Program-made: the position numbers and the translations under genes
In this document: positions 14,608-35,333 of the stretch, in pieces
Position numbering within the stretch: position 1 is the first letter of the stretch
Layout: each line of letters opens with the position of its first letter
The notes under the pieces: generated by a model
Databases searched by the model: none
Told to the model about the DNA's origin: nothing
The model's input: the letters and a program-made list of their open reading frames with translations, nothing else
Origin: Croceimicrobium hydrocarbonivorans
GTDB taxonomy: Bacteria; Bacteroidota; Bacteroidia; Flavobacteriales; Schleiferiaceae
Length of the DNA stretch: 64,000 nt
Direction of reading: 5' to 3'
NCBI RefSeq assembly: GCF_014524565.1
Contig: NZ_CP060139.1
Location: 2,611,501 to 2,675,500 of the forward strand

Positions 14608-15255
14608 CTAATTAGGTAGGATAAGCCCTTCGTTTAGGGCCCATTTATAAAGATCTAAACTGGTTTCTAATTCGAGTTTTTGGAAAATTCGCGCGCGGTA
14701 GGAGGCAACGGAGCTACTATGGAGCTTGAGGATTTCTGCTATTTCACGAGAGGTTTTGCCTTGAATCATAAGGGAAAGTACTTCTGACTCTCTTTGGGAA
14801 AGGCAATTAATAGTTTGTCGGTTGTCGGAGCCGGAAGCAATACTTTCCATTAATATTTCACTGGAGAAATAATTCTTTCCACTGAGGAGGTTGATGATGG
14901 CAAAATGCAATTCTTCATCGGGGGAGGTTTTTTCGATAAAGCCATTAATTCCAATATCTACCAAACGTTTGATATAAAGCTTAGCGGGTTCCATGGAGAA
15001 CATCAGAATGGGACTTTTAGGAATCAAATTGCGGATAATGCGCACCAGGGAGATGATTTCAAAATCTGGAAGATTGATGTCCATCAAAATCAAATCCGGA
15101 AAATCTTGGGCATCGGCCATTTCCTGACAGGTGCTTACCGCTTCTTTTCCTGTTGCAGCAATTTGATAAGAGTCGAAGAGCTTATTGCGCTCGCAAAATG
15201 ACTTAACTCCCATTTGAACTACGGGGTGATCATCGACAATTAAAAGTTTACCCAT
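14608..15255 (-). CDS. NarL/LuxR-type response regulator
   Basis: A receiver domain with the phospho-acceptor Asp59 (LILMDINLPD) and acidic pair Asp8-Asp9, then a C-terminal LuxR helix-turn-helix (SQRESEVLSLMIQGKTSREIA). The ATG at 15255 (MGKLLIVDDHP) is chosen; the frame runs 25 codons further upstream, but those codons are unlike any receiver and contain the regulatory repeat at 15320. It is a close paralog of the regulator at 15988-16644. No histidine kinase is adjacent, so it is an orphan. It would bind DNA after phosphorylation. Confidence 0.85.
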   Translation of the reverse strand: MGKLLIVDDHPVVQMGVKSFCERNKLFDSYQIAATGKEAVSTCQEMADAQDFPDLILMDINLPDFEIISLVRIIRNLIPKSPILMFSMEPAKLYIKRLVDIGINGFIEKTSPDEELHFAIINLLSGKNYFSSEILMESIASGSDNRQTINCLSQRESEVLSLMIQGKTSREIAEILKLHSSSVASYRARIFQKLELETSLDLYKWALNEGLILPN

Positions 15256-15459
15256 GAATTGAATTTGCGGCAAGGAATAGAATTCCATCTTTTCAGATTT
15301 TAGAAAAAGCTGATTCTTATTGTAGAACATGTTTTACATGTCGCAAAATGGACTTGGTGCAGCAGTGCTTTTAGTTTAAGTTCTACAGCAGAATCGAACG
15401 AAAGCCACAGTATCCTAGTCGCCGATTAATGAGGTTTGTGATATTAAAAAAATGAAGTC

Positions 15460-15852
15460 GTGCGAATATTAGTTCTTGAAGACAACCAGTTTATAGCCTC
15501 AATAATTACTGCGTCCTTAAAAAGTAGCGAGTCTGAATTGCTAATTGTGAAGGACCAATTCGAGGCGGAAAAGTACTTCAAAGAGCAAATACCGGACATT
15601 TTGATTTCAGATATTCATATGGAGCAGGGAACCAGTCTAGATTTTCTCAAAGAGGTTCGTAAGTATCCACAAACTAAGGTTGTGGTGGTAAGCTCGGACT
15701 TTGAACGATTGATGGAGGTGGAAGAGAATATAGGTTTAAAGAACTGGTCCTATATCAGTAAAAATAATCGCAAGTGGCTAATGCTTATTAAGACGGAAAT
15801 TTTGTCATTTCTCAAAGCCAATAATTCAAGTACAGCATCTCCAATAAGCTAG
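15460..15852 (+). CDS. Receiver-only (CheY-like) response regulator
   Basis: 130 residues, beginning at a GTG (MRILVLEDNQF). Receiver landmarks are Glu7-Asp8, phospho-acceptor Asp51 (ILISDIHME), the switch Ser in VVVVSSDFE, and a conserved Lys in YISKNNRKW. There is no output domain, so it would act through protein contacts, as a phosphate sink or as an adaptor. It lies divergently between two paralogous LuxR-type regulators, suggesting that the three belong to one circuit. Partner kinase not identified. Confidence 0.82.
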   Translation: MRILVLEDNQFIASIITASLKSSESELLIVKDQFEAEKYFKEQIPDILISDIHMEQGTSLDFLKEVRKYPQTKVVVVSSDFERLMEVEENIGLKNWSYISKNNRKWLMLIKTEILSFLKANNSSTASPIS

Positions 15853-15960: not shown

Positions 15961-15989
15961 GTGCCGGTAAAAATGCCGGCACTTCTTTT
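15961..15989 (+). terminator. Probable terminator after the receiver gene
   Basis: A 7-bp stem GTGCCGG/CCGGCAC with an 8-base loop followed by TTCTTTT. It sits about 110 bp after the receiver gene and just before the end of the convergent regulator gene. Confidence 0.55.
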
Positions 15990-16644
15990 AGGGATGTATC
16001 AGCCCTTCTTTTAAGGCCCATTGATAGAGCTCAAAATTGCTCTTAACACCAATCTTGTCGAAGATACGTGTGCGGTAGGTTGCGACAGAGCTTTTATGCA
16101 GATTCAATAGCTCACAAATTTCTTTAGGTGATTTACCGCGAATCATCAAACCCAAGATTTCCGATTCTCTTTCGGATAGATCGTTGGATATGTTGCTAAG
16201 TTCATCCGCATCATCCTTATCGTTCATCACTTCCATTAAGATGTCGCTGGAAAAATAGGATTTGCCGGAAATAATGCTGCGAATAGCAAAAAGCATTTCA
16301 TCATCCGTAGAGGTTTTATTTAGAAAACCTTTCACCCCTAATTTGATCAAACGCTTGATGTAGAGTTTGGGTGGCTCCATAGAAAACATCATGATGGCCA
16401 TTTCCGGTGCTCGATCAAGCATGAATTTTACCAGGGCTAAAGCTTCGTAATCCGGTAGGTTAATATCCACGATCGCCATTTGGTAAAAGTCAGGATCTGA
16501 CTGATGCTCTTTGATTTTTTTAACCGCTTCCTTCCCGGTTCCCACCACATCAATTTGGCTGAATAATTTATTCCGCTCCATAAAAGAGCTCATTCCCATT
16601 TGTACTACCGGATGATCGTCAACGATTAAGATATTGCCTGCCAT
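15988..16644 (-). CDS. NarL/LuxR-type response regulator (paralog)
   Basis: A 218-residue regulator with receiver Asp60 (AIVDINLPDYE) and acidic pair Asp9-Asp10, then a LuxR helix-turn-helix (SERESEILGLMIRGKSPKEIC). Long stretches match the 14608-15255 regulator (VDDHPVVQMG, ERNKLF, FSMEPPKLYIKRL, the C-terminal WALKEGL), so the two arose by duplication. Most differences lie in the linker and the recognition helix region. No kinase is adjacent. The start is a clear ATG at MAGNILIVDDHP. Confidence 0.87.
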   Translation of the reverse strand: MAGNILIVDDHPVVQMGMSSFMERNKLFSQIDVVGTGKEAVKKIKEHQSDPDFYQMAIVDINLPDYEALALVKFMLDRAPEMAIMMFSMEPPKLYIKRLIKLGVKGFLNKTSTDDEMLFAIRSIISGKSYFSSDILMEVMNDKDDADELSNISNDLSERESEILGLMIRGKSPKEICELLNLHKSSVATYRTRIFDKIGVKSNFELYQWALKEGLIHP

Positions 16645-19287: not shown

Positions 19288-19719
19288 AAGTATTTTATTT
19301 CATCATAGTATGATCTTTCCGCTATCGAATTGAATTCCTGCTTTGAATAGGCTTGGAATCAAAATTTAGGTTTCTCTTTTCGGATTATTGACTAACGTTT
19401 GGGAGGCAAGATTCTTCTTCCTTTAGGAAATATTTCTTTTTGGAATACATCTTTTTAAGGTTCAAGTAATTGTGCTTCATGTCTTTGGCTTCTAGGTTGC
19501 TGTTTTGAATTTCAATTAAATGTGGATATAGATCGACAATTGTAGTTGCTTTTCTACAACTAATCTGCTAATGTTTTACTCATCAAGCATTTAGGCTGTA
19601 ATTCATTTGTGTTGAGAAATTGAAATGGGATTCGCCGCATGACTGACTTGTTATTCAGGGGTTTAAGTCTGAGGTGAATCTGATTGTTTACAAAGAAACA
19701 CAAGCTAAATTCTTGATTT
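19288..19719. other. Gene-free intergenic region
   Basis: AT-rich divergent spacer between the waaA operon and the giant kelch gene. I see no coding potential. The only structure is a short inverted repeat TTGTAG (19540-19545) / CTACAA (19554-19559), which resembles the GTAGAAC repeats seen elsewhere in the window. A CAAAAGTA (19285-19292) could be a minus-strand -7 box, but it lies too close to the start codon to be convincing. Confidence 0.6.
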
Positions 19720-22700
19720 ATGCACTTTAAAAGGATTATTCTACTCGTATTTATATTGGGGCTATTTAAAGCTCAAGCTCAGCAATTGGCCAGTGCTTAT
19801 GTTGGTGGGGATTTTACCGCCAATAAAAGTGGGGTTTTTTATCAGAAGAATGTCGTGAATACCCCGCATCCAGAATCTTTGGCCGGACAAGCCATGTGGT
19901 CTTATAATGGCACCATTTACTTGTTTGGCGGTTCTTCAAAAGATCCGAGTAGCAATAATTTTACGGTAAGAGCCAATAACCGATTGTGGACTTATACTCC
20001 TGCTGCCGGATGGACCTTGGTTTCAGGATCCACGGGATTTGCTACCAGTTATGGTCCCCCCTATGTATCCGGGACTTCCTCATTGGTTTATGGTCAAAAG
20101 GGAGTGGCTGCATCTAAAAATTTACCTGGAGCCCGTACTGGGGCAGCGACCGCTCAAAGCCCAAGCGGGCAATTGTTTATGTATGGTGGCTTTGGCTTGG
20201 GTTATAATAGTTCCGGTACTAAAATAACCGGCGCTCTGGAGGATTTGTGGATGTATAATGGAAGTCAATGGGTTTCATTGATGGATTCAGTTTCGGTAGC
20301 TCAAAGTGGGGTTTATGGTACCCTGGGTCAGGAAGGGCCAAGTTTTACTCCCGGTTCCAGAGCTAATGCCACTATGTGGTATCAAGATGGTTATTTGTAT
20401 CTATTCGGAGGGGCCAGTGCGGTTGACATTGGTTGGATGGGACCAACACTCAGGCCTACCCAGAATAAAAATGATTTATGGCGCTATAATATTTCAACTG
20501 GTCAATGGTCTTGGATTTCGGGAAGTAGTGGGGTAAATCCACTAGCCACTTCCAGTGGCTCTGTGTTTACCTATCCTGAATCAAAATCAGGTGCTGCTCA
20601 TGTATTAGGAAGTGATGGCAATCATTATTTCTATGGAGGTTGGACTGTAACGAGTTCCGGTGTTGTTGCTCGATCTCAAACTTTCTGGAAGTTTGATGGG
20701 ATCAACTGGTCAGTACTTTCGGGTGATCCCAGTAGTGTGTCCAATGCGAATGGCAGTTTAAGCGGAGGTCTAACGGGCGCGAGTTTGGCAGAAGCGAATG
20801 GAAACATTTATCTGATTGGTGGGATGATCAGTGTGAACTTATTTCCATTTAGCTATTGGGCGAATTCAACTATTTATAAGTGGGATGGCTCTGCCTGGTC
20901 TTCCTATAAAACTTGTGCATCAACCTACAACAATATTAGCAGTACCGAATATTCCAGCACGGCCTGTTTGGGTTCTTTGGTGGGTGAAATTAAGTCGGTA
21001 AAGCTGAATGATGAGATCTACCTTTATGGTGGTTTAGGCTTGGCTAATGAGTTCTCCTCATTATTATCCAAATTTGATGGTGAAGATTTCGCCTTCGTAA
21101 GTACAATGGGTAATACTGCCCGAAACTATCGCAATGGTACTGCTTCGACCATATCAAAACCGGGTGGCCTTTATTCAGCTGCTTCTGCCTTTAATTCAGT
21201 TAGCAAAGAATTGTATATGTATGGCGGTGATAATCAAGAAGCTGGGCTTTTTTCAAATTTATGGAAGTATACTGGTGGAGAATGGGTTTGGTTAACGGGT
21301 GCGGGGGCTTCTAGCGCTACCTTGCCGGTTCATGGTACCCAAGGTGTGTCGGCAACTGCTAATACACCAGGGTCTCGCATGGGGTCTGTAATGTGGTTTA
21401 ATACAGCGGGCGATACCTTATGGCTCTTTGGCGGTTATGGATATGATTCTAATGGAAGTTTAGGTCGCTTAAATGATCTTTTCTGTTACGTTAATGGGAA
21501 ATGGGCCTGGATCAAAGGTTCTAAATTAGTGAACCAAACAGGGGTCTATGGCAGTCAGGGCGCAGGTGCTGCTACAAATAATCCTCCGGGTTTAAGTGGG
21601 ATGAGAGTTTGGGTCAACAGTGCTGGTAAGGCCTATATGTTTGGTGGTATTGCTCAGCATACTTCCGGAGCCTTAGTATCGCAAAATACCTTGTGGAAAT
21701 TTACCGGAACCAATTGGGTTTGGATAAATGGAACCAATTCAAGTTTGGCTTTGCATAGCGTCTTTGGTGTTCCTGGCGATTACCAATCCACTTATACTCC
21801 TTCCGGTCGATCGAATTTCTGTATGGCAGGAGATGCTAATGGATTTTTCGTTTTTAGTGGTGAAGGCTATTTCGGTACCACTGCTTTAGAAAATACGAAT
21901 CAGTTATGGCATTTTGATGCTAGCCTAAATCAATGGTCTTATATGAGTGGACAAACGTTTTCGGTTAACAGTGCTCCTGCCCAAAGTTATGGGGCTGCTA
22001 CCTTCAATAGTTCCTCGGTAAGTCCGGGTTATTTGAGAGGTGCAACAGCCTGGATGGTCGATGGTGTTTTTTACGTTTTTGGAGGAAGACAGCATTTGGG
22101 AGGTTCTACCTATACCAATTCGAATAATCTCTGGGAATGGAATGGTTCTAATTGGGCTTGGCTCAAAGGTGCTCAAAATGCTTTTGGTTATAATCAAAGT
22201 CCAATTTACGAGTCGGCTAAGGATTTTGATTATGATAATTTACCGGCACCACGATACAATGCTATTAGTTGGCGGGATGGCAAAACTGCGTATCTGGCAA
22301 CAGGATTGGGGACTGCAAATTTAACTGGCGATCAATCTCTGAATGATATCTGGGCCTTCAATCCTGGAAATATTTGGAATGGAGCGATTTGGTCTAATGG
22401 TGCTCCTACAACGAAGTCGGAGAACGTACAGGTTTTATCAGCAACCAGTCCCAATGCTGCGTTTCAAGCTAAATCGCTCCTTATAGATGCAAATCATAGC
22501 CTTAATATGAATGCCCAAGATATAAGCATCGCAGGGGATTTATTTAACTATGGGGCCTTGGTCAATCCCGGGAGAATACACTTTAATCGAAATGGTACTT
22601 CCACCATTAAAGGCGCTTTATTAGAGTTGGATAGTATTTTAATTGTAGAGTCGCAAACTACTTTGAACACCAACAACTACCTCAAGCTGAAAGCTGCAGG

Positions 22701-24159
22701 TCCTGCCAAATTCGCCGAGTTGGTTAACCTGGGGACGGTAAATGGCGATGTAAGTATGCAGTATTATATCCATTTGGAGAATACGGCAATAAATGGACGA
22801 TATGTGCACTTTGGGAATGTGTTTAAAGATGCAACTATGGCTAATTTGATTTCAGCGGCAGACACCACCATTCGCACCGGAAGAACTAATCCTTCCTACA
22901 ATACAGTATGGTATGTTGATGCGTCCAATGCATCTTGGATAAGCCCGGCTAGCACCGATCCATTTGAACCAGGTAGAGGTTATGCCGTATATGCAGGAAC
23001 CAATGCATCAGATCGTTTCTTACTCAAAAGCGGGCAATCCGGCGTAATTACTTTGACAGGGGCCTTGCCCACTACTAAAAATCCCAGCAGAGCAATACAT
23101 TATAATGATGGTCAAAGTAGTTCGATTAACTGGGTTGGAGGCACCTCGCAGGTAGCAACGGAAGGATGGAACTTCTTGGCCAATCCATTTACCCACAGTA
23201 TTAAGATTAGTGATCTTCTAACTAATCTCTCAGGTAAGTCCATATACTTATGGAACGGCTCAAGCTATTCTGCCTATAACACCTTTACAGACGTTTCGAC
23301 CTCTGGTGGGACGCCCTATCTTGCTCCGGGTCAAGCCTTTTTTATTCAACTGGATCAGAATGATGTTTTGACCTATCCTAATTTGACTTTTAATAAAGAG
23401 ACGCTTTGGAATGCAGTAGGAGCGAATCGAGGTCGATATTTTAAAAATGCCAATTCGGGAGCAGATGGAATTCGAGTAAAGCTAAGTACAAGAGATAGCA
23501 TTCCTTTAGAAGATGATGCTTGGGTAGGCTTTCACCAAGATGCAAGTCAGGCCTTTGATCGGAAGTTTGATGCTTGGGAGATAGGTCTTGCAGAACCCGG
23601 AGTATCGATACCCGGTCCAGAAGGAAACCTAAGTATTGCAACCTTTAATCCAGATTCCACTTATTATGTTGATTTGGAATTAGTAGCCCAACAAGGTGAT
23701 ACCCTTGATCTTGATTTCAATGTAGCTGAACTAATGTCATTTGACCAGGTGTACCTGGAAGATTTGAAATTTGACATTAGACAGGATCTAAGAATTAAGA
23801 GTTCTTATTCATTGGTACATGATAGTACCGAACTCGGACGATTCCGATTGAAGTTTGCTGGTAGGTTAGGGCAAAGAGAATTACCGGTTGTCGATAAACA
23901 AATCTCTAACTATTCATTTTATAATCAAGGTGGAAAGGTATTTTTAAACTATCTGTCTGACTTAAGGTCGAATACTGAAATGAATCTTAAGATTTATGAT
24001 TTAAGTGGAAAGTTGGTGCAAAAGCTTAAATGGGAAAATCTTCAGCAAGATCTTCAAATTCTTCAAAATCAGAATTCTGGGATTTATGTGCTTGCTCTCG
24101 AAGCTAGTAATGGTGCTCAGGAATTAAACGAAAATTTGAAAGTATTCAAGCATAGGTAA
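19720..24159 (+). CDS. Giant kelch-repeat secreted protein with T9SS sorting domain
   Basis: A 1479-residue exported protein. After the signal peptide (MHFKRIILLVFILGLFKAQAQ) come many kelch-type blades up to about residue 890. They are recognisable from recurring pairs such as LWMYNGSQWV / YLYLFGGASA / GSRMGSVMWF, which would form one or two beta-propellers. A long beta-rich middle follows (IWNGAIWSNGAPTT, typical of T9SS cargo). The last 80 residues are a type A T9SS domain (NLKIYDLSGKLVQKL ... NSGIYVLALE). It is probably exported and attached to the cell surface. Ligand unknown. Confidence 0.85.
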   Translation: MHFKRIILLVFILGLFKAQAQQLASAYVGGDFTANKSGVFYQKNVVNTPHPESLAGQAMWSYNGTIYLFGGSSKDPSSNNFTVRANNRLWTYTPAAGWTLVSGSTGFATSYGPPYVSGTSSLVYGQKGVAASKNLPGARTGAATAQSPSGQLFMYGGFGLGYNSSGTKITGALEDLWMYNGSQWVSLMDSVSVAQSGVYGTLGQEGPSFTPGSRANATMWYQDGYLYLFGGASAVDIGWMGPTLRPTQNKNDLWRYNISTGQWSWISGSSGVNPLATSSGSVFTYPESKSGAAHVLGSDGNHYFYGGWTVTSSGVVARSQTFWKFDGINWSVLSGDPSSVSNANGSLSGGLTGASLAEANGNIYLIGGMISVNLFPFSYWANSTIYKWDGSAWSSYKTCASTYNNISSTEYSSTACLGSLVGEIKSVKLNDEIYLYGGLGLANEFSSLLSKFDGEDFAFVSTMGNTARNYRNGTASTISKPGGLYSAASAFNSVSKELYMYGGDNQEAGLFSNLWKYTGGEWVWLTGAGASSATLPVHGTQGVSATANTPGSRMGSVMWFNTAGDTLWLFGGYGYDSNGSLGRLNDLFCYVNGKWAWIKGSKLVNQTGVYGSQGAGAATNNPPGLSGMRVWVNSAGKAYMFGGIAQHTSGALVSQNTLWKFTGTNWVWINGTNSSLALHSVFGVPGDYQSTYTPSGRSNFCMAGDANGFFVFSGEGYFGTTALENTNQLWHFDASLNQWSYMSGQTFSVNSAPAQSYGAATFNSSSVSPGYLRGATAWMVDGVFYVFGGRQHLGGSTYTNSNNLWEWNGSNWAWLKGAQNAFGYNQSPIYESAKDFDYDNLPAPRYNAISWRDGKTAYLATGLGTANLTGDQSLNDIWAFNPGNIWNGAIWSNGAPTTKSENVQVLSATSPNAAFQAKSLLIDANHSLNMNAQDISIAGDLFNYGALVNPGRIHFNRNGTSTIKGALLELDSILIVESQTTLNTNNYLKLKAAGPAKFAELVNLGTVNGDVSMQYYIHLENTAINGRYVHFGNVFKDATMANLISAADTTIRTGRTNPSYNTVWYVDASNASWISPASTDPFEPGRGYAVYAGTNASDRFLLKSGQSGVITLTGALPTTKNPSRAIHYNDGQSSSINWVGGTSQVATEGWNFLANPFTHSIKISDLLTNLSGKSIYLWNGSSYSAYNTFTDVSTSGGTPYLAPGQAFFIQLDQNDVLTYPNLTFNKETLWNAVGANRGRYFKNANSGADGIRVKLSTRDSIPLEDDAWVGFHQDASQAFDRKFDAWEIGLAEPGVSIPGPEGNLSIATFNPDSTYYVDLELVAQQGDTLDLDFNVAELMSFDQVYLEDLKFDIRQDLRIKSSYSLVHDSTELGRFRLKFAGRLGQRELPVVDKQISNYSFYNQGGKVFLNYLSDLRSNTEMNLKIYDLSGKLVQKLKWENLQQDLQILQNQNSGIYVLALEASNGAQELNENLKVFKHR

Positions 24160-24217
24160 ATCGGATTTGTGCTAATTATCGAAAAAATTTAATTTTTAAC
24201 ATTTAAAATTGATTACT

Positions 24218-25000
24218 ATGAAAAGGATACAATTGTTATTTGTTTTTATGTCGATTTCATTGTTGGTAAACGGACAATATAAATACGATAAAGTTTCCAA
24301 ATTTGGAGAATACCACGATAAATGGACCTTAATTGAGGTAGGTGGGCTGTATGGGTTTATTGACAAAAATGGAGTTGAAGTTGTAAAGCCTCAGTATGAT
24401 AAAATCTCCAAATTTGGAGAATATCACGGTAAATGGGCCTTGGTTGAGGTAGGTGGACTGTATGGGTTTATTGACAAAAATGGAGTTGAAGTGGTAAAGC
24501 CTCAGTATGATGAAATCTCCAAATTTGGAGAATATCACGGTAAATGGGCCTTGGTTAAGGTAGGTGGTCTTTATGGATTTATTGGTCTAGACGGAGCCCA
24601 AGTTGTAAAGCCTCAGTATGATGAAATCTTCAAATTTGGAGAATATCACGGTAAATGGGCCTTGGTTAAGGTAGGTGGTCTTTATGGGTTTATTGGTCTA
24701 GACGGAGCCCAAGTTGTAAAGCCTCAGTATGATAAAATATCACCGTTTGGAGAATATCATGGTAAATGGGCCTTAGTTAAGGTAGGTGGGCTGTATGGGT
24801 TTATTGGTAAAGATGGAGCCCAAGTTGTAAAGCCTCAGTATGATAGAATTTTCAATTTTGGAGAATATCACGATGGATGGGCCTTAGTTGAGTTAAATGG
24901 GCTGTATGGATTTATTAACCAAGAAGGTGCTGAAGTTGTAAGGCCTCAATATGAGGAGTTTAGAATTAAAAAGGGACTTGAATTCATTAGAAAAGGTTAA
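24218..25000 (+). CDS. WG-repeat protein
   Basis: About 260 residues, from ATG 24218 (signal peptide MKRIQLLFVFMSISLLVNGQ). The rest is six tandem 37-residue WG repeats, each with YDxxSxFGEYHxKWALVxVGGLYGFIxxxGxxVVKPQ-type content, then a short tail ending in KGLEFIRKG. WG repeats form beta-structures of unknown ligand in many Bacteroidota exported proteins. It follows the kelch gene after only 58 bp without a terminator, so it may be on the same transcript. Near-identity of the inner repeats points to recent expansion. Confidence 0.85.
   Translation: MKRIQLLFVFMSISLLVNGQYKYDKVSKFGEYHDKWTLIEVGGLYGFIDKNGVEVVKPQYDKISKFGEYHGKWALVEVGGLYGFIDKNGVEVVKPQYDEISKFGEYHGKWALVKVGGLYGFIGLDGAQVVKPQYDEIFKFGEYHGKWALVKVGGLYGFIGLDGAQVVKPQYDKISPFGEYHGKWALVKVGGLYGFIGKDGAQVVKPQYDRIFNFGEYHDGWALVELNGLYGFINQEGAEVVRPQYEEFRIKKGLEFIRKG
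24284..24949 (+). repeat. Six in-frame 111-bp tandem repeats
   Basis: Exactly six units of 111 bp (37 codons) encode the WG repeats. Units 2-5 are nearly identical in DNA, with shared blocks such as AATATCACGGTAAATGGGCC and GTAAAGCCTCAGTATGAT, while units 1 and 6 have diverged. Such an array can gain or lose units by slippage or unequal recombination. Confidence 0.9.
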
Positions 25001-25418
25001 GGAGAAGTGACAAATAAGCACAATAAAAGCTTAGTAGCCATGGTGGTTAGTAGTGCGCTGATATTCCAATTAATTTTCTTGACCTACGATCTGACAGTCT
25101 GAGCACGAAAATCTGATACGGCTTATTAGCGAAACCTTTGCATAGCCTTCTTATGCTTAAAGCCTTAAAAGGCTCCGGTCATTAAGATCGGGGCCTTTTT
25201 TTGTTTTTACCTCTGAAAATCAATAGATGGGAATTTTGTATTTTCAAAGGGGGAATTGTCAGAATAAGAATGTTATGTAGAACATACATGACATTTAATA
25301 TTATTCGTACTACTCTTTGCTCTTCAGAATTGTGTTTTTTTTGAGAGCATTTTTTCCAAGCTTTTGACCCTGGTTTTACAGCAGAAAGCTTTGGGGAATA
25401 ATAAGGAGTTCTATTAAA
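25001..25418. other. Intergenic region with a terminator and a repeat element
   Basis: No coding potential seen. It holds the terminator at 25167-25202, then a TGTAGAACAT element (25276-25285) shared with other intergenic regions, followed by ACATGACATT. The GAAACC...CTTATGC stretch before the terminator has no recognised RNA family. Confidence 0.55.
25167..25202 (+). terminator. Terminator after the WG-repeat gene
   Basis: A 10-bp stem (25171-25180 with 25186-25195, two G-T wobbles) with an ATTAA loop and a T run; upstream A residues extend the pairing. It lies 166 bp after the WG stop codon, so the transcript would have a long 3' end or include an unrecognised small RNA. Confidence 0.8.
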
Positions 25419-28400
25419 TTGACTGCTAGTTTTTTGAAACAGAGGTATTTCTATAGCGTGTTCTTAAACGCCTTACTTTTTTTAGCATGCATGCCTATTC
25501 ATGCCGAAATAGTGAGACTTCGGGTTGAAGCCCCGCTACGAATCCTCAATTACTCTATCGAATATATCGACAATACTTCCGGGTTGATGCAGAATGAGGT
25601 TACCGCCCTTCACATGAGTCCGGAGCATTTACTTTGGATAGGGACCCAACAGGGTTTGTTTCGGTATTCAGGTCGGCGGCTTAAGGCTTTTCTTCCTCAG
25701 AATGATTCCTTGATGAATGGGGTGCGGATCTTGGATTTTTACCGTACCCGATCCAATCGGATTCTAGCCTTGAATGAATACTATCAATATTCATTATTGT
25801 CAGAAGATCAAAGAACGCTTACCAATCAAAATGAAGATAATCGAGGTTATTTGTTTTTCCGCCATGGTAGCGTGGGGGAGAGCGACTTGATTCGTTGGCA
25901 TGGGTATCATCAATACTTGGTGGACTCCAATCGGTATTATTTTGATAATGACGGGGAATCCAGTGCCTTGTATTACAATGATGGATATGGGATGGAGGAA
26001 GTGCCATATAAGCTAACGGTATTTAGCCGTGAGCATCTAATGGTTTTTGGAGAGAGCATGTATGTACTGCAGGATGATGGTGCAATTATCCGAATTAACG
26101 GACTTTTAGTAGATACCATTGGCTCTGTGCCTGATTTAGTGCGGCCTCAAAAATGGACAGAAGATCCGCTCCTGAGTCAGATGCTTTGGAATGCGGCGGA
26201 GAATAAAGCTTATCTCTACCGAAAGGGAGAGTTATATCAGTTTTACCCAAATGAGAAGGAGGGCTTGCACTTGCAATTAATTGCCCGAGGTATTCCGAAG
26301 GGAGAATACTCTGCCTGCGTGTATAGTAAAGAGGATGCGCGTATTTTTCTGGGCACCCGCAAAAAAGGATTGATGATAATGTCTCCACTATTTATTCGGC
26401 AAGTGGTTACGGATAGTACTTGTGCGGCAGGAGTTCCCAATTATACCCTGGCCGCTATCGGGCGGGATTCAGTGCTATCAACCTTGGGTATTTTGTATTC
26501 TAATTCCAAGGTGGAATGTGAGGCCTTCTATGGTGCCTATAGCGGATTACTGGGTTTTAATTCAAGTTTGAAGCAAATCTATGCGGTGGAGGAGCCTTCG
26601 AGGCCCTTATTAATAGACCTAGAGAATGGAGATCGCAGGTATTTAAAAGTGCCGGTGGATTCGGCAAATGTTCGAACTGGGCATATTATTCAAAGAAGAG
26701 GAGATGTGTATATGTTCATCGAATCGATTGGCTTAATGCGCTTGGAGGGCGATAGCTTGGTTTGTTTGGCTTCCGTGCCCGCAGATAAAGGAGAAGTGAA
26801 TTATGCAGGCCAATTATTCTTTCTAAACGATTCTACCGTTTGGATGCTCTACGGTTTTAAAGCGCAAATGGTCATCTTCGATTTAAAAACTCGAGAGGGC
26901 AGGGTTGTAAGAATTAGCGAGCGTGAAGATTTTAATTCCCGCTTTTTGTATCGAATAGGAGATAAGGTCTTGTTAACGACCTATGGAAAAGGAATTTATG
27001 TTTGGGAAAATGAACATTGGTCCAAATTAGATTTGAAAGGAAACTTGGCTATGGAGGCCTGTCATGGTATAAGGCAAGTTGGAGATTGCTTGCTATTCAG
27101 TACTAATCAAGGTTTGTATGTAAGTCCAAAGGAGCTTTTTGAGGCCTATTTAGATGATCAGATTCCTTTTCCAACTTTTACGGCTTTTAGTGCGCATGAT
27201 GGCTTGAGGAATTTTGAGTTTAATGGTGGTGGTACCTCTGAGCCAATAATTTCCAATCTAGACGGAAAATTTGTGATACCTAATCCCGATGGTGTGACCT
27301 ATTTAGATGGGGATTTTAAAAGCTTTATGCCGCGATATCATGCCGAATTGATTTTAGAGGAGGTCTATGTGGATGGTCAAAATTTGTCCATTATTGAGAA
27401 CGCTGAATTACCACCTCTGTTTTCGAATTTAATGGTGAAGCTTTTGAATCCTTATTATGGGGATGAAGAGAATAGTCCGGTTTATTATCGGGTGCCAGAA
27501 CTGAACTCCGAATGGCGGGAAATAGATTTTGAAAAAGGATTGCTCTTTGATCGCTTACCCAGCAATGGTAGCTACAGCCTCGAAATATATATGCCCTTTA
27601 TGCCTAAGCAGGCTCGAATATTTAGAGTTTGGCAATTTTCTGTCGGTCCTCGCTTTCATGAAACATTGGCCTTCTTCTTAATCATGGGCTTGGTAGCCTT
27701 GTTCCTGATATTGGGATTGTTTGAGTTGGTGCAGCGAAGAAACCGAGCCTATCAACAGCGGTTAAAAGATGAAATTGAGAAAAGAACCGAAGAAATAGCG
27801 CGGAATAATGTGAGTTTAGCCCATACGGTAGCTGATTTGCAGGAATCTCGGCAACAATTGAATCGCGCTATTGGACTTCGGGACCGAATGATCACTATAT
27901 TCTCTCATGATATTAGGGGGCCCTTGCGTTTTATGGCGGATGTGGCCTTTGATATAAAGGAAAAAACCCAGGCAAAGGGAATGGAAGATCTCAGTCGAGA
28001 TTTAGAGATATTAAGTACTTCTACTCGGGGAGCCTACGAAACGGCGAATACCATCTTGGAGTGGATTCGTAATCAGGATTTAAAGGATTCAGAAAATCAA
28101 TTTCCATTAGGTAAGGCCGTAGATCAAGTTCTGGATCGTAAGGCAGCCGAATTAATGAAGTACCGCATTTTGGTGGATTGGGATTTAAAACAGGACTTTC
28201 TAATTGCTACACGACCCAAAGCTCTCGAAATAGTAGTCGAGAATATTGTTGAGAATGCCATAAAATATTGTGCCCATAAAATTTGGATTCGAATCTTCGA
28301 GGAAGATCAAAGGATTTGTCTTGAGGTGACGGATGATGGGCCGGGTATTCAGGATCAAAAGCGACTGAACGCCATTAATAGTGGAGTAGCGGTGCGCAGT

Positions 28401-28559
28401 AAAGGTGGTCAGCGTGGTGCAGTAGGTTTAGGGGTAGGCCTGCCTATGGTTAGAGAAATTATTGGTCAGCTAAACGGCACACTCCTATTTCAAAATGCTG
28501 CCGGAAAAGGTCTCCAGGTAAGGGTTTGTCTGCCCTTTTATGCCGAACTGAATGAATAA
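25419..28559 (+). CDS. Sensor histidine kinase with periplasmic propeller (Reg_prop/Y_Y_Y)
   Basis: A 1046-residue membrane sensor. A signal segment (residues 10-28) precedes two-component propeller blades, beginning LMQNEVTALHMSPEHLLWIGTQQGLFR, and a Y_Y_Y-like sandwich near residues 630-740. A membrane helix follows (about 748-770), then a HisKA domain with His830 (FSHDIRGPLRF) and a HATPase domain (EIVVENIVENAIKY, DDGPGIQ, GVGLGLP-like VGLGVGLPMV). Unlike many relatives it has no receiver or AraC output, so it needs a separate regulator. The TTG start is preceded by AAGGAG. Ligand unknown. Confidence 0.85.
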   Translation: MTASFLKQRYFYSVFLNALLFLACMPIHAEIVRLRVEAPLRILNYSIEYIDNTSGLMQNEVTALHMSPEHLLWIGTQQGLFRYSGRRLKAFLPQNDSLMNGVRILDFYRTRSNRILALNEYYQYSLLSEDQRTLTNQNEDNRGYLFFRHGSVGESDLIRWHGYHQYLVDSNRYYFDNDGESSALYYNDGYGMEEVPYKLTVFSREHLMVFGESMYVLQDDGAIIRINGLLVDTIGSVPDLVRPQKWTEDPLLSQMLWNAAENKAYLYRKGELYQFYPNEKEGLHLQLIARGIPKGEYSACVYSKEDARIFLGTRKKGLMIMSPLFIRQVVTDSTCAAGVPNYTLAAIGRDSVLSTLGILYSNSKVECEAFYGAYSGLLGFNSSLKQIYAVEEPSRPLLIDLENGDRRYLKVPVDSANVRTGHIIQRRGDVYMFIESIGLMRLEGDSLVCLASVPADKGEVNYAGQLFFLNDSTVWMLYGFKAQMVIFDLKTREGRVVRISEREDFNSRFLYRIGDKVLLTTYGKGIYVWENEHWSKLDLKGNLAMEACHGIRQVGDCLLFSTNQGLYVSPKELFEAYLDDQIPFPTFTAFSAHDGLRNFEFNGGGTSEPIISNLDGKFVIPNPDGVTYLDGDFKSFMPRYHAELILEEVYVDGQNLSIIENAELPPLFSNLMVKLLNPYYGDEENSPVYYRVPELNSEWREIDFEKGLLFDRLPSNGSYSLEIYMPFMPKQARIFRVWQFSVGPRFHETLAFFLIMGLVALFLILGLFELVQRRNRAYQQRLKDEIEKRTEEIARNNVSLAHTVADLQESRQQLNRAIGLRDRMITIFSHDIRGPLRFMADVAFDIKEKTQAKGMEDLSRDLEILSTSTRGAYETANTILEWIRNQDLKDSENQFPLGKAVDQVLDRKAAELMKYRILVDWDLKQDFLIATRPKALEIVVENIVENAIKYCAHKIWIRIFEEDQRICLEVTDDGPGIQDQKRLNAINSGVAVRSKGGQRGAVGLGVGLPMVREIIGQLNGTLLFQNAAGKGLQVRVCLPFYAELNE

Positions 28560-28927
28560 TCAAAATCTGAGCTTTTGAGCTTTTTTCATTAGGGCCTTTA
28601 CCTCTCCTTTTACAATCCCTTGACTTTCTAGCAAGTAGATCTCGGAACAGGATCGAATTTTCCTTTACAGTCTTCAAGCCTTGAGGCGAATTGAGACTAT
28701 TTGTAGAACTAAAGCTACACTTGGATGGCGAAGTTCTACAATTAATAGGCATGAAGTGTTACGGGTCTTGATTTGTTTATCCTCTTAATTTGTTACAGTT
28801 ATTAAGCCTTGAAGTTAAAGTGATTAACAAATGCTGATAGCTAATAATTACTATCATTTATTCTTGGGGGAAATGGATGATTAATGATTTAAGAGGAAAG
28901 GAATTTAAATAAAAATACTTTGATTTT
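28560..28927. other. Intergenic region with a perfect 10-bp inverted repeat
   Basis: No convincing gene; a 97-codon minus frame crosses the kinase gene end and has no family features. The striking element is TTGTAGAACT (28701-28710) and its exact complement AGTTCTACAA (28732-28741), separated by 21 bases. The arms could be a divided operator, two half-sites two helical turns apart, upstream of the PID-CTERM-like gene. Confidence 0.6.
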
Positions 28928-29119
28928 ATGAAATCGAAAATTGGTTTTGCTTTTGCAATATTGATGATTTTGATCCTAACGGAAGTTTCTGCTCAACCAA
29001 GTGGTGGTGGTCCGGGAGCTCCAACCCCAATAGGCTTTGTGGAAGTCCTCTTAGTTGGGGGAGCGGCATTAGGGATAAGTCGAATTAAACAAAATCGGAA
29101 AAGTGATGATGCATTATAG
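28928..29119 (+). CDS. Miniprotein with PID-CTERM-like C-terminal sorting signal
   Basis: 63 residues: signal peptide (MKSKIGFAFAILMILILTEVSAQ), a Gly/Pro-rich linker (PSGGGPGAP), then TPIGFVEVLLVGGAALGISR, a hydrophobic segment, and a basic end (KQNRK). This tripartite tail resembles the short PID-CTERM/PEP-CTERM-like exosortase substrates of Bacteroidota, although the usual PID is PIG here. The mature protein is only about 40 residues and may be membrane-anchored. It overlaps the next gene. No sorting enzyme is in the window. Confidence 0.6.
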   Translation: MKSKIGFAFAILMILILTEVSAQPSGGGPGAPTPIGFVEVLLVGGAALGISRIKQNRKSDDAL

Positions 29120-29498
29120 GAGTTTTTCTTTCGTTTTATTGGAATTTATTTTGAAAAGCATGGCTTTGCTTTTAATTGGAATGATTCTGTTTCTTATTTG
29201 GGATTCATTCGATGTAGATACGGTTTATTTTTATGTGCCATTGACGGTATTATTCTCTGTGTTTATGTGGCAATTAGTTTACAAATGGTATAATCCAATA
29301 TTGGTGTATAAGGATGGTAATTTGGTGCATTCAAACGGTTTGTATTCCACCGTTATAGGGTCTAATGTCAAGGTGCGAGTGAAAGGAAAATTTGGCTTCG
29401 GTGCTGTTGTGAGACTCTTCGGTGAAAGAGGTGCAGTAACAGTTTGGATGGGTTCTAATCGTCTACATGAAGTAAGAGGTTTTAACACCTTCGCTTAA
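29106..29498 (+). CDS. Two-helix membrane protein of unknown function
   Basis: About 130 residues, with start at ATG 29106 or 29109 (a GTG at 29103 also fits); all overlap the end of the miniprotein gene. Two membrane helices (about residues 9-30 and 38-57) are followed by a soluble beta-rich tail (VKVRVKGKFGFGAVVRLFGERGAVTVWMGSNRLHEV). No family is recognised. The tight overlap suggests it is made with the PID-CTERM-like protein and perhaps handles it. Confidence 0.6.
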   Translation: MMHYRSFSFVLLEFILKSMALLLIGMILFLIWDSFDVDTVYFYVPLTVLFSVFMWQLVYKWYNPILVYKDGNLVHSNGLYSTVIGSNVKVRVKGKFGFGAVVRLFGERGAVTVWMGSNRLHEVRGFNTFA

Positions 29499-29597
29499 GA
29501 AGAAATTCTTTAGGGTGACAAGAGAAATAGTGGCATCCTAGAAAAGATTTAAATAGGAAAAAATTAAAAATTTATATTCTCCATCTCCTCTCTCCAG

Positions 29598-29623
29598 GCT
29601 CGGTTTTATACCGGGCTTTTTTT
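29598..29623 (+). terminator. Terminator after the PID-CTERM pair
   Basis: A 7-bp stem GCTCGGT/ACCGGGC (one T-G wobble) with a TTTAT loop followed by seven T residues. Confidence 0.85.
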
Positions 29624-29785: not shown

Positions 29786-30922
29786 ATGAAAAAAATTCAA
29801 ATGGTTGACTTGGTCAGCCAATATCAAAAAATTCAGGATCAAGTAGATAAGGCCATCCTTGATGTTGTGCGTTCCTCTGCTTATATCAATGGACCCGAGG
29901 TTAAAGCCTTTCAAAGTGATTTGGAAAGCTATTTAGGAGTGAAACATGTGATTCCTTGTGCTAATGGAACCGATGCCCTGCAAATAGCTATGATGGCTCT
30001 GGGTTTAAAGCCAGGAGATGAGGTGATTACAGCAACTTTTACCTACGTTGCTACCGCTGAGGTAATTGCGCTTTTAGGCCTGACTCCGGTTTTAGTAGAT
30101 GTCGATGAAGATACATTTGGATTAAATACCGATCAGGTTCGTGAGGCAATTGGCCCTAAAACCAAAGCAATTGTTCCAGTGCACTTATTTGGGCAATGTG
30201 CCGATTTAGAGACCATTATGCAGATTGCCAAAGAGCACAATTTGTATGTGGTAGAAGATACCGCTCAGGCCATTGGCTCTAGCTATTATTTTGAGAATGG
30301 AAGCAGTGCTAAAGCTGGTACTATCGGTGATATTGGAACCACCTCATTTTTTCCCAGCAAGAATTTAGGCTGCTTTGGAGATGGTGGAGCGATTTTCACT
30401 AATGATGATGATTTGGCTTCTAAAATCCGCATCATCGCCAATCATGGGCAAACCGTACGCTACTACCATGATATGATAGGGGTGAACTCACGGTTGGATT
30501 CCATTCAGGCGGCAATTCTAAGATGTAAACTTCCTCATTTGGATGAGTACATAAAAGCCAGGCAAGCAGTGGCTGATTATTACGATCAGGCTTTTGCGAA
30601 TACCCCTGAATTAAAAACACCAGTGCGCGATTCGAAATCTGAGCATGTATTTCATCAGTACACACTGCAGTTAGCAGAAGGTATTGATCGCAATAAATTA
30701 GTAGAGTATCTCCAAACCAAAGATATTCCGGCCATGATTTACTATCCGGTAGCACTGCATATGCAAAAGGCTTATCAGGACGAACGTTATCAAAAAGATG
30801 ATTTTCCGATAACCAACCGTTTGGTGAGTCGGGTATTTTCGCTGCCCATGCACACTGAGCTAGAAAAAGATCAATTAGAACATATAACCTCCGAAGTACT
30901 TAACTTCATCAAGAACCATTAA
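29786..30922 (+). CDS. DegT/DnrJ/EryC1/StrS-family sugar aminotransferase
   Basis: A PLP-dependent enzyme that aminates keto-sugar nucleotides for surface glycans. PLP contacts are visible: [14 protein letters not shown], the acidic EDTAQAIGS, and the Schiff-base lysine Lys192 in [28 protein letters not shown] and HVFHQYTL follow. It resembles WbpE/WlbC-type enzymes acting on UDP-3-keto-N-acetyl sugars, but the substrate is not certain. It is the first gene of the five-gene sugar operon, and ugd starts 2 bp after its stop. Confidence 0.88.
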
Positions 30923-30924
30923 AC

Positions 30925-32244
30925 ATGAAAATAGTTATAGTTGGAACAGGATATGTAGGTTTAGTTACAGGTACCTGTCTTTCAGAAGTAGGTATTGATG
31001 TGACCTGCGTTGATGTCGATGTAAAGAAAATCGAAAACCTTAAGCAAGGAATTCTTCCTATTTACGAACCCGGTTTGGATAAACTGGTACATCGCAACTA
31101 TGAAAAAAATCGTCTTCAGTTTTCTACCAATTTAGGAGAAGCCATTAAAGGTGCTGATGCTGCCTTTATTGCGGTTGGAACCCCTCCCGGAGAAGATGGA
31201 AGCGCTGACCTAAAATATGTATTAACCGTAGCTCGTGAGATCGGGGAAAACATGAATGATTATGGTGTGATTATCACCAAATCTACTGTGCCGGTTGGAA
31301 CTGCTGCAAAAGTTAAGAAGGAAATTAAAGATGCCTTAGATCGTCGTGGTGTGAGCATTGATTTTGATGTGGCATCTAACCCCGAGTTCCTTAAAGAAGG
31401 GGCAGCGGTAAATGACTTTATGAAACCCGACCGTATTGTGGTGGGAGTTGAATCGGAGCGCGCTCGCAAGGTTCTCGAAAAATTATATCACCCCTTTACC
31501 CTTAATGGTCACCCGGTAATTTTCATGGATATTCCATCAGCCGAAATGACCAAATACGCTGCTAATGCGATGTTGGCAACTAAGATTTCATTTATGAACG
31601 ACGTAGCCAACCTTTGTGAGATTATGGGTGCTGATGTAAACTTAGTTCGTCGTGGTATCGGATCTGATCCTCGAATTGGAAACAAATTTATCTACCCAGG
31701 AATTGGTTATGGCGGTAGCTGTTTCCCTAAAGATGTGAAGGCATTAGTGCGCACTGCTCGTGAAAATGGCTACGAAATGCGCATCTTACAATCGGTGGAA
31801 GAGGTAAACGAAGACCAAAAATCAGTTCTTTTCCAAAAGGTATTGAAACGTTTTAATGGCGATCTAAAGGGTAAGCATTTCGCCGTATGGGGTCTTTCTT
31901 TTAAGCCTAATACTGATGATATGCGTGAAGCACCATCAGTAGTAATTATCGAGAAATTACTGGCAGAAGGTGCAACTGTATCTGCTTACGATCCCGTAGC
32001 TATGGAAGAAGCTAAGCACGATTTAGGCGATCGCATCACCTATGCTGAGAATGAATATGAGGCCATTAAGGGTGCAGATGCCCTCTTAGTGGTAACCGAA
32101 TGGAGTGAATTTAGAGTTCCTGACTTCGAGGAAATTAAAGACTCCTTAAATAGCCCCCTTATTTTTGATGGTCGAAACATCTTCGAAATTAGCCGCATGG
32201 CTGAGTTAGGATTTGAGTACCACTGTATTGGGGTAAAATCCTAA
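30925..32244 (+). CDS. ugd: UDP-glucose 6-dehydrogenase
   Basis: Oxidises UDP-glucose to UDP-glucuronate with two NAD+. The N-terminal Rossmann motif is [11 protein letters not shown], followed by [17 protein letters not shown] and the catalytic Cys266 in [10 protein letters not shown]. The C-terminal domain has [16 protein letters not shown]. The 439-residue length is standard. Second gene of the operon; its product is the substrate of the next enzyme. Confidence 0.95.
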
Positions 32245-32250
32245 TTTTCT

Positions 32251-33243
32251 ATGAAAAGAGTTCTAATCACCGGTGCAGCCGGTTTTTTAGGTTCCCATTT
32301 ATGTGATCGCTTTATCGCTGAAGGCTTTCAAGTGGTAGGAATGGATAACCTGATTACAGGTGACCTTAAGAATATTGAGCATCTCTTTGCGAAAGAAGAA
32401 TTTGAGTTCTATCATCACGATGTTTCCAAATTCATTCACGTATCAGGAGAGCTTGATTATATCCTTCATTTTGCTTCTCCGGCCAGCCCTATCGATTACT
32501 TGAAAATTCCGATTCAAACCCTCAAAGTAGGTTCTTTAGGAATTCACAATTGCTTGGGATTGGCAATGGCTAAAGGAGCCCGCCTGATCATTGCTTCTAC
32601 CTCAGAAGTATACGGTGATCCACAAGTGCATCCGCAAACTGAGGAATATTGGGGGCATGTTAACCCTGTAGGCCCCAGGGGGGTGTATGATGAAGCCAAG
32701 CGATTCCAGGAAGCGATGACCATGGCCTATCATACCTACCATGGATTAGAAACTCGCATCGTACGTATCTTTAATACCTATGGTCCCAGAATGCGCTTGA
32801 ATGATGGTCGGGTATTACCGGCTTTCATTGGTCAGGCCTTAAGAGGCGAGGATTTAACGGTATTTGGTGATGGATCGCAAACTCGATCCTTTTGCTATGT
32901 AGACGATTTGGTTGAAGGTATTTACCGCTTATTAATGAGTGATTATGCCGGGCCGGTGAATATTGGTAACCCAGATGAAATTACCATTGGCGAATTTGCT
33001 GAGGAAATCATCAAGCTTACGGGAACGGATCAAAAGGTGATCTATAAAGACTTACCAAAAGATGATCCTACACAAAGACGACCCGATATCACCAAAGCCA
33101 AAGAACTCTTGGGCTGGGAGCCAAAGGTTAGTCGTTCTGAAGGATTAAAAATCACCTACGAATATTTCAAGTCTTTACCCACTGAGGAACTCTATAAAAA
33201 GGAGCATAAAGACTTCAAAGATTACATTCGCCAAAAGCAATAA
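32251..33243 (+). CDS. uxs: UDP-glucuronate decarboxylase (UDP-xylose synthase)
   Basis: An extended SDR enzyme converting UDP-glucuronate to UDP-xylose. It has the NAD motif [11 protein letters not shown], the hallmark [11 protein letters not shown], a STSEVYGDP active-site segment, and Tyr146-xxx-Lys150 (YDEAK). The IFNTYGPRM and [10 protein letters not shown] stretches are typical of UXS. The 330-residue length fits the soluble bacterial form. Placement directly after ugd gives a two-step UDP-Glc to UDP-Xyl route. Confidence 0.93.
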
Positions 33244-33245
33244 AT

Positions 33246-34268
33246 ATGGCTCAGATTCTGGTAACCGGCGGATTAGGTTTTATCGGCTCGCATACTGCAG
33301 TCGAATTAATCAAAGCCGGACATGAGCCGGTACTGATAGACGATCTTAGTAATTCTACCGCTTCGGTTCTTGATGGAATTGAAGAAATAACCGGTCATCG
33401 TCCCGTATTTGAAAGAGTCGATTTAAAATCGAAAGCTGAAGTACGAGATTTCTTTGGTCGCTATAGTTCTTTGGATGGAATCATTCACTTTGCTGCTTTC
33501 AAGGCGGTGGGTGAATCGGTTCACAAGCCCTTAGAATATTACGAGAATAATTTAGGCTCCTTGGTTTACCTGCTACAGGAAATGCGCGACCTGCAGATTG
33601 ATAATTTAATCTTTAGCAGTAGTTGCACAGTTTATGGTGAGGCAGATGAATTGCCAATCACAGAGAATAGCCCGGTGAAGGCCGCAATTTCCCCTTATGG
33701 AAATACCAAGCAAGTAGGAGAGGAGATAATCCAAGATGCTATAAAGGCCCACGGATTTAATGCTATTTCATTGCGTTACTTCAATCCTATTGGTGCTCAT
33801 CCTAGTGCTATGATTGGCGAATCACCCTTGGGCGTACCTCTTAATTTGGTGCCCTACGTAACCCAAACTGCAGCAAAGGTTCGTGAGCAATTAGCTGTTT
33901 TTGGTAGCGATTATGAAACTCGTGATGGCACCAATGAAAGAGATTATATCCATGTGGTGGATGTAGCGAAGGCACATGTGGTAGCTTTAAACCGCTTATT
34001 GAATCGCCAGAATGAGGGGGCCTACGAAGTATTTAACCTAGGCACCGGAACCGGTTCAACCGTATTGGAAGTAATTCAATCATTTGAGCGCGTTTCTAAT
34101 AGCAAACTGAATTATAAAATAGTGGAGCGTAGGCCTGGTGATGTTACCGCAGCTTATGCTGATACAACCAAGGCCAATACCGTTTTGGGATGGACGGCCG
34201 AAAAAAGCTTAGACGATGCCATGGCGGATGCATGGCGCTGGGAAAAGAAAATCAGAAACATAGATTAG
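33246..34268 (+). CDS. galE: UDP-glucose 4-epimerase
   Basis: Interconverts UDP-glucose and UDP-galactose. It has the NAD motif GGLGFIGSHTAVELI, the SSSCTVYG active-site serine segment, Tyr151-xxx-Lys155 (YGNTK), RYFNPIGAHPS and RDYIHVVDVAKAH. The 340-residue length is usual. Its ATG lies 2 bp after uxs, and rfbB follows after 9 bp. Activity on N-acetyl sugars cannot be excluded. Confidence 0.93.
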   Translation: MAQILVTGGLGFIGSHTAVELIKAGHEPVLIDDLSNSTASVLDGIEEITGHRPVFERVDLKSKAEVRDFFGRYSSLDGIIHFAAFKAVGESVHKPLEYYENNLGSLVYLLQEMRDLQIDNLIFSSSCTVYGEADELPITENSPVKAAISPYGNTKQVGEEIIQDAIKAHGFNAISLRYFNPIGAHPSAMIGESPLGVPLNLVPYVTQTAAKVREQLAVFGSDYETRDGTNERDYIHVVDVAKAHVVALNRLLNRQNEGAYEVFNLGTGTGSTVLEVIQSFERVSNSKLNYKIVERRPGDVTAAYADTTKANTVLGWTAEKSLDDAMADAWRWEKKIRNID

Positions 34269-34277
34269 AAAATAACC

Positions 34278-35333
34278 ATGTCGAAGAAAATATTAATTAC
34301 CGGAGGAGCAGGCTTTATTGGATCCCATGTGGTGCGCCTATTCGTGAATAAGTATCCGGACTATGAAATTTACAATCTTGATGTTCTTACTTATGCAGGG
34401 AACCTAGAGAACTTGAAGGATATTGAGAATGCCCCGAATTATCACTTTGTAAAGGCTGATATTGTTGATGCAGAAGCAATGAACAAGCTTTTCGCGGAGC
34501 ATCGTTTCGAAGGGGTTTTACACTTGGCAGCAGAAAGTCATGTGGACCGTAGTATTACTGATCCACTAGCCTTTGTTCGCACCAATGTAATTGGTACTGT
34601 TAACTTACTCAATTCTTTTAGAGATACCTGGAAGGATAATTTCGAGGGTAAGCGTTTTTACCATATCAGTACTGATGAGGTATATGGTACTTTAGGTGCA
34701 GAAGGCCTTTTTGAGGAAACTACCTCCTACGATCCGAATTCACCTTATTCGGCTTCTAAAGCTAGTTCCGATCATTTTGTTCGGGCTTATGGTGAGACCT
34801 ATGGAATGCCTTATGTGATTACCAATTGCTCTAACAATTATGGCCCGAATCAATTTCCGGAGAAACTGATTCCGCTCTTTATTCATAATGTGCGCAATGA
34901 AAAGCCTTTGCCCGTTTATGGCGATGGAAAGTACACCCGCGATTGGTTGTATGTGATTGATCATGCTCGCGCCATTGATCTCGTTTACCACGAAGGTCGT
35001 AATAAGGAGACCTACAATATTGGGGGCTTTAATGAGTGGCAAAATATAGACTTGATCAAGGTTCTTTGCAAGCAAATGGATGAGAAACTCGGTCGTCCGG
35101 CAGGGACTTCGGAGGGCTTGATTAGCTATGTAAAGGACCGTCCTGGTCACGATCGCCGCTATGCCATTGATGCCACTAAAATCAATAAAGAGTTAGGATG
35201 GGAACCTTCAGTAACCTTCGAGCAAGGTTTGGGAGAAACTATTGATTGGTATTTACAGAATGAAGATTGGTTAAACAGTGTTACTTCTGGAGATTACCAA
35301 AACTATTACAAAGACATGTACGCAGATCGCTAA
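34278..35333 (+). CDS. rfbB: dTDP-glucose 4,6-dehydratase
   Basis: Makes dTDP-4-keto-6-deoxyglucose, the entry to rhamnose and amino-deoxy sugars. It has NAD motif GGAGFIGSHVVR, the catalytic STDEVYGTLG (Asp-Glu pair), and Tyr157-xxx-Lys161 (YSASK), then NCSNNYGPNQFPEKLIPL and YGDGKYTRDWLYV. Last gene of the operon; rfbA, rfbC and rfbD are not in the window. It ends 4 bp before the convergent transporter gene, with no clear terminator between. Confidence 0.95.
   Translation: MSKKILITGGAGFIGSHVVRLFVNKYPDYEIYNLDVLTYAGNLENLKDIENAPNYHFVKADIVDAEAMNKLFAEHRFEGVLHLAAESHVDRSITDPLAFVRTNVIGTVNLLNSFRDTWKDNFEGKRFYHISTDEVYGTLGAEGLFEETTSYDPNSPYSASKASSDHFVRAYGETYGMPYVITNCSNNYGPNQFPEKLIPLFIHNVRNEKPLPVYGDGKYTRDWLYVIDHARAIDLVYHEGRNKETYNIGGFNEWQNIDLIKVLCKQMDEKLGRPAGTSEGLISYVKDRPGHDRRYAIDATKINKELGWEPSVTFEQGLGETIDWYLQNEDWLNSVTSGDYQNYYKDMYADR

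Follow-up and report, generated by a model that had tools for sequence, protein, structure and literature searches.

A conserved miniprotein–membrane protein gene pair in a Flavobacteriales genus and the link of its miniprotein class to exosortases

Our analysis of a 64,000-nucleotide stretch of DNA (hereafter the window; positions 2,611,501–2,675,500 of a 4.04-Mb single-contig Flavobacteriales genome) concerns two overlapping genes, one for a 63-residue miniprotein and one for a small membrane protein. Miniproteins of the same class occur in a nested fashion among the Bacteroidota genomes that encode an exosortase, a sorting enzyme of the membrane. We regard this nested dependence as the most useful result, since it makes the miniproteins testable candidate substrates of the exosortase XrtF. 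The gene pair itself is conserved and under purifying selection, and it is restricted to one genus-level group rather than forming a widespread module.

Results

The miniprotein gene occupies 28928..29119 on the forward strand and encodes 63 residues, MKSKIGFAFAILMILILTEVSA–QPSGGGPGAPTPIGFVEVLLVGGAALGISRIKQNRKSDDAL, the PIGF variant of the PID-CTERM class. The preliminary description saw in it little besides a signal peptide, a Pro/Gly linker and a sorting-like basic tail, and the open reading frame, hydropathy and alignments bear this out. The sequence and its hydropathy predict a Sec signal peptide over residues 1–22 (28928..28993, forward strand), ending in VSA before QP; among 32 class members the residue that follows is invariantly Q, and the next is P in nearly all of them. 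The QP-Pro/Gly linker QPSGGGPGAPTPIG (28994..29035, forward strand, delimited by alignments) leads through the motif PTPIGF into one short C-terminal hydrophobic helix with a basic tail, GFVEVLLVGGAALGISRIKQNRKSDDAL (29033..29116, forward strand), which was recognized by hydropathy and matches positions 9–25 of NF046080. The N-terminal signal peptide, C-terminal helix and basic tail expected of an exosortase substrate are thus present.

The partner gene (29106..29498, forward strand) encodes a membrane protein of 130 residues with two transmembrane helices and a six-stranded C-terminal domain. It may start at GTG 29103 or at ATG 29106 or 29109, it ends at 29498, and its frame, which differs from that of the miniprotein, overlaps the miniprotein gene by 14–17 nt; the overlap between the miniprotein stop and the partner start noted earlier is therefore real. 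Both are genuine genes under purifying selection, as judged from dN/dS values against the sister genome G001 of 0.058 for the miniprotein and 0.081 for the partner, together with a gene order that is kept in six genomes. Partner homologs occur in five of the seven genomes of the genus (G000–G004), and a sixth pair was found in L089, a Flavobacteriales metagenome-assembled genome. In each of these six genomes a miniprotein gene encoding PTPIGF or PTPLGF stands immediately before the partner gene, so that the two genes co-occur wherever the partner exists. The gaps between them, from −20 to +12 nt among members, suggest translational coupling. Outside G000 and G001 the partners are only about 20% identical, with Y4, W55, N77, G78, G85 and G106 invariant (alignment positions).

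When 298 genomes of the order were searched with a partner profile, nothing convincing turned up outside the genus; all matches there had E>0.001, were mostly short or interrupted by stops, and were treated as chance. The partner was also sought in phages, where none was found. A collection-wide search at the DNA level for the pattern PTP(I/L)GF(T/V/A/I)E returned five matches, four of them from the pair's own group, including three already known; the fifth, in Microbulbifer, runs antisense to a long gene and was discarded.

AlphaFold2 models the window partner as two long helices (7–34 and 40–62) followed by six strands (mean pLDDT 75, pTM 0.49), and the homolog in G002 follows the same plan (pLDDT 87.3, pTM 0.69), in agreement with the two-helix membrane protein with a beta-rich tail first described. 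Searches of Pfam and NCBIfam matched no family, and Foldseek comparison of the two partner models with the PDB gave nothing significant (best E 0.34), with PH-like folds recurring among the non-significant matches. Two specific candidates found no profile support: the XrtF-associated protein TIGR04127 (no NCBIfam match, hhalign probability 0.3%) and bPH_2 (PF03703; no sequence or profile match, hhalign 0.3%). The partner represents a new family of small membrane proteins. By the positive-inside rule, its positive charges would place the beta domain in the cytoplasm.

Do the two proteins work together? They could have separate functions and merely be co-transcribed, the miniprotein being a standard XrtF substrate and its neighbor an unrelated small membrane protein. 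We hold this to be a real, if minority, possibility: it is gene order that ties the two together, all other miniproteins occur without the partner, and profile comparison relates the partner neither to the XrtF-associated protein nor to bPH_2. On the other hand, the partner is always accompanied by an adjacent PIGF or PLGF miniprotein despite the low identity among its members, and the order of the pair has outlasted a rearrangement that swapped its upstream neighbor. Judging from that order, the likeliest role of the partner would be to hold, deliver or monitor the putative substrate.

The preliminary description further listed a terminator belonging to the unit and a perfect inverted repeat upstream. 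The former was recovered as a Rho-independent terminator-like hairpin followed by a T-run (29596..29618, forward strand, from sequence). The repeat TTGTAGAACT/AGTTCTACAA (28701..28741, no strand assigned) does have perfect 10-bp arms, at 28701–28710 and 28732–28741 around a 21-nt spacer, but it only marginally exceeds chance, because 9 of 300 sequences obtained by dinucleotide shuffling of the intergenic region (368 nt) contained a perfect repeat of at least equal length and because only arm 1 is preserved in G001. Arm 2 carries three changes there, all of which would keep G-U pairs in RNA. For these reasons we set it aside as a regulatory element. Within a block conserved with G001 lies TTAATTTG (28785..28792, forward strand), which matches a loosened pattern at 7 of 8 positions and resembles the Bacteroidota −7 element consensus, TAnnTTTG. 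The leader is about 130 nt long, and the block CATTTATTCTTGGGGG at 28856–28882 is kept in G001 and not conserved in the other members. An RNA family search of the leader and tail returned sub-threshold matches only.

The C-terminal class to which the miniprotein relates is already modeled (NCBIfam PID_CTERM); it is large and little studied, and the term PID-CTERM was not met in our literature search. Against NF046080 the miniprotein scores 15.6 bits, below the curated threshold of 26. The literal P-I/L/V-D-G motif is absent from all six pair members, which carry PIGF or, in G003, PLGF; where the PID motif has Asp, the window miniprotein has Gly. Comparison of the mature parts by hhalign nonetheless matched 12 PID forms with a probability of 96.8% (E 2.4e-10) and 8 PFGF forms with one of 98.3% (E 1.2e-14); the score of P0001 against alignment A3 is not independent, since P0001 is a row of that alignment. 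Profile homology of its linker and C-terminal domain places the miniprotein, as a divergent member, in the PID-CTERM class broadly understood. A match of the miniprotein to PF06055 (ExoD) at E 0.017 was taken as chance.

The association of the class with exosortases was assessed in 297 Bacteroidota genomes, each at least 90% complete, with exosortases called by TIGR04178 and miniproteins counted as confident at E≤1e-4. An exosortase is encoded in all 54 genomes with a confident miniprotein, versus 114 of the 297 overall (Fisher p 1.5e-27, kinship ignored), and in 28 of 28 miniprotein genera versus 45 of 141 genera (p 4e-18, kinship likewise ignored). The first screen scored 21 candidates per genome, and absences were therefore rescored exhaustively. 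Two of 16 exosortase genomes initially without a miniprotein gained one and 14 remained without, and 16 exosortase-negative genomes yielded no convincing miniprotein, their weak matches (E>0.004) lying in long frames. The dependence hence runs in a single direction: a miniprotein requires an exosortase, whereas an exosortase does not require a miniprotein. One contrary case, G021 (90% complete, 560 contigs), has a PID match and no exosortase that we could find. The miniprotein gene adjoins the exosortase gene in G406, G545, G344, G368, G332, G017 and G031. Taken with the phylum-wide link, these neighbors strengthen the reading of the miniproteins as putative sorting substrates. Compact operons of a PID miniprotein, an exosortase and a small membrane protein, with genes that overlap or nearly do so, were noted at L074, L077 and L088 (in G406, G545 and G017). 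G079, G086, G136 and other g21/g24 genomes have an exosortase, yet showed no miniprotein after exhaustive scoring, so that the enzyme in these genomes must act on something else.

An exosortase, without which a sorting role for the miniprotein would have little meaning, is also at hand in the genus. The host encodes one XrtF (129.9 bits, cut-off 90), located some 2 Mb away from the window pair and adjoining its TIGR04127 associated protein (45.1 bits, cut-off 35), and all seven genomes of the genus encode an exosortase. The catalytic Cys, Arg and His positions of XrtF are conserved in an 11-member alignment, the His in 10 of 11. All seven genomes carry at least one miniprotein, and a search of the host genome revealed two more in addition to that of the window.

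The surroundings of the pair are rich in signaling and surface genes. Directly upstream lies a sensor histidine kinase of 1046 residues (25419..28559, forward strand, HATPase_c). A stand-alone receiver (REC) protein is encoded at 15460..15852 on the forward strand, and its homolog directly precedes the pair in G002, G003, G004 and L089; in G003 a kinase homologous to that of the window comes first, followed by the receiver, the miniprotein and the partner. Two response regulators with LuxR-type HTH domains lie on the reverse strand at 14608..15330 and 15988..16644. A Kelch-repeat protein with a T9SS C-terminal signal (19720..24159, forward strand) has homologs beside the pair in G002, G004 and L089, and among members the pair locus repeatedly contains LuxR-type response regulators as well as T9SS proteins with Kelch repeats. 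A 5.9-kb block containing the Kelch/T9SS gene and a WG-repeat protein (19344–25230) is missing between homologous flanks in G001. Downstream (29786..35333, forward strand) are sugar-nucleotide genes for surface polysaccharide, with a DegT aminotransferase and dehydrogenase/epimerase genes, the names other than DegT being assigned by sequence resemblance. Such genes come immediately after the pair in G000 and G001, whereas in G002 and G003 several kilobases intervene. The tie of the window pair to polysaccharide genes is a regional association only. Recent transfer of these enzymes, considered in view of their high identity with G001, was ruled out at a DNA identity of 88–91%.

Elsewhere, miniprotein genes tend to follow genes for T9SS cargo. 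With a strict pattern, a T9SS-type tail was found on the upstream product for 30 of 47 miniproteins that have an upstream gene within 200 nt, and more are apparent by eye. In L037–L040 (G033, C7, 2.38–2.42 Mb; G019, C13, 486–512 kb) a three-gene unit is repeated in tandem several times: a giant protein with a T9SS tail, then a PFGF miniprotein, then a regulator-like gene whose product has a C-terminus of HTH type. One may accordingly ask whether the miniprotein helps to mature or anchor the giant proteins secreted by T9SS, the exosortase being active in that envelope pathway but not on the miniprotein; the position of most class members directly 3′ of T9SS-CTD genes and the Kelch/T9SS gene in the window would agree with this. 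We think it decidedly improbable, given that some miniprotein genes adjoin an exosortase instead and that the C-terminal architecture fits exosortase signals.

The other forms examined within the genus (PIPG, PLDG, PFGF and PIGG) lie downstream of genes for T9SS-like proteins, whereas the PIGF form is the exception, being preceded by a histidine-kinase or receiver-domain gene. This exception, together with the change from Asp to Gly and the sub-threshold family score, could indicate that the miniprotein stays intact as a type I single-span inner-membrane peptide and regulates either the adjacent histidine kinase or the partner. The tie between the class and exosortases would then go back to a common ancestral signal whose processing the PIGF form has lost. 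Small membrane proteins that regulate sensor kinases are numerous. Even so, such a role appears unlikely: the QP…PTP linker and the basic tail are retained, and the PFGF forms likewise lack the Asp, yet lie behind T9SS genes in exosortase genomes, so that loss of the Asp does not mean loss of processing.

Discussion

We propose the following model for the window pair. The miniprotein would be exported by Sec, its signal peptide being cut off before Q23, and its C-terminal helix and basic tail would anchor it in the inner membrane. XrtF may then recognize the P-T-P-I-G–helix–basic tail arrangement and cut near P34-I35-G36. Were it to cut near PIG, the linker QPSGGGPGAPTPIG would be approximately the whole mature miniprotein, released as a Pro/Gly peptide of about 12–13 residues. 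By analogy with PEP-CTERM systems, this peptide might be joined to a carrier, such as a glycan, and so reach the surface. The two-helix partner, translated together with the miniprotein, would likewise reside in the inner membrane, its beta domain facing the cytoplasm, and could hold, deliver or monitor the miniprotein; expression of the pair is probably tied to the adjacent two-component genes, the Kelch/T9SS adhesin and the surface-sugar genes. That the miniprotein is an XrtF substrate, taken by itself, appears likely to us. We lean toward the fuller proposal, in which XrtF processes the miniprotein and the partner serves it, with somewhat less assurance, and we advance a direct interaction of the partner tentatively, as something short of an even chance. 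It is conceivable, but would surprise us, that the genus has built a self-contained signaling device on exosortase sorting, in which the processing of a tiny secreted Pro/Gly peptide is sensed or gated by the partner and the kinase/receiver proteins.

What is the relevance of the nested co-occurrence? In Flavobacterium johnsoniae, mutants in the genes for XrtF and its associated protein lose biofilm formation and surface colonization (PMC10936215), and the targets of XrtF were stated as unknown in 2025 (PMC12188702). Since the miniprotein class is tied to exosortases, its members are candidate XrtF substrates, and the nesting extends this to the whole class, even to those forms that lack the PID motif. 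Exosortases often occur where there is no miniprotein, and XrtF must therefore act on other substrates too. The miniprotein–exosortase operons offer clean test systems for XrtF-type substrates. If cleavage occurs near P-I-G, the product is only some twelve residues long, and exosortases would then have a role beyond the anchoring of large surface proteins. The idea of an undescribed module of sorting substrate and partner thus survives in part: its substrate half has gained from the phylum-wide exosortase link, while the class proves to be modeled already and the pair to belong to one genus-level group.

With respect to known systems, XrtF and its associated protein (TIGR04128 and TIGR04127; Fjoh_1448/1449) also form a neighboring pair, present in the host genome as well, 2 Mb from the window, but the window partner bears no relation to the TIGR04127 protein. 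Proteins of the bPH_2 family resemble the partner in having two transmembrane helices and then a small beta domain, with no relation in sequence. The miniprotein differs from PID-CTERM proteins (NF046080) in having Gly-Phe, not Asp-Gly, after PI/PL, and in being paired with a membrane protein and two-component genes instead of standing behind a T9SS gene; the two share a signal peptide, a short P-rich linker, the P-I/L motif, a short helix with AAGxxxG, a KK-type basic tail and occurrence in exosortase genomes. Unlike the substrates of PEP-CTERM/exosortase (EpsH) systems, it has no PEP motif and no globular domain, consisting almost entirely of its two signals, and the exosortase is of the XrtF type. 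Exosortase systems are known for their ties to polysaccharide genes (PMC12188702, PMC7468200), and the window miniprotein shares with the PEP-CTERM systems an N-terminal signal combined with a tripartite C-terminal signal, a genome-wide link to exosortases and polysaccharide genes nearby.
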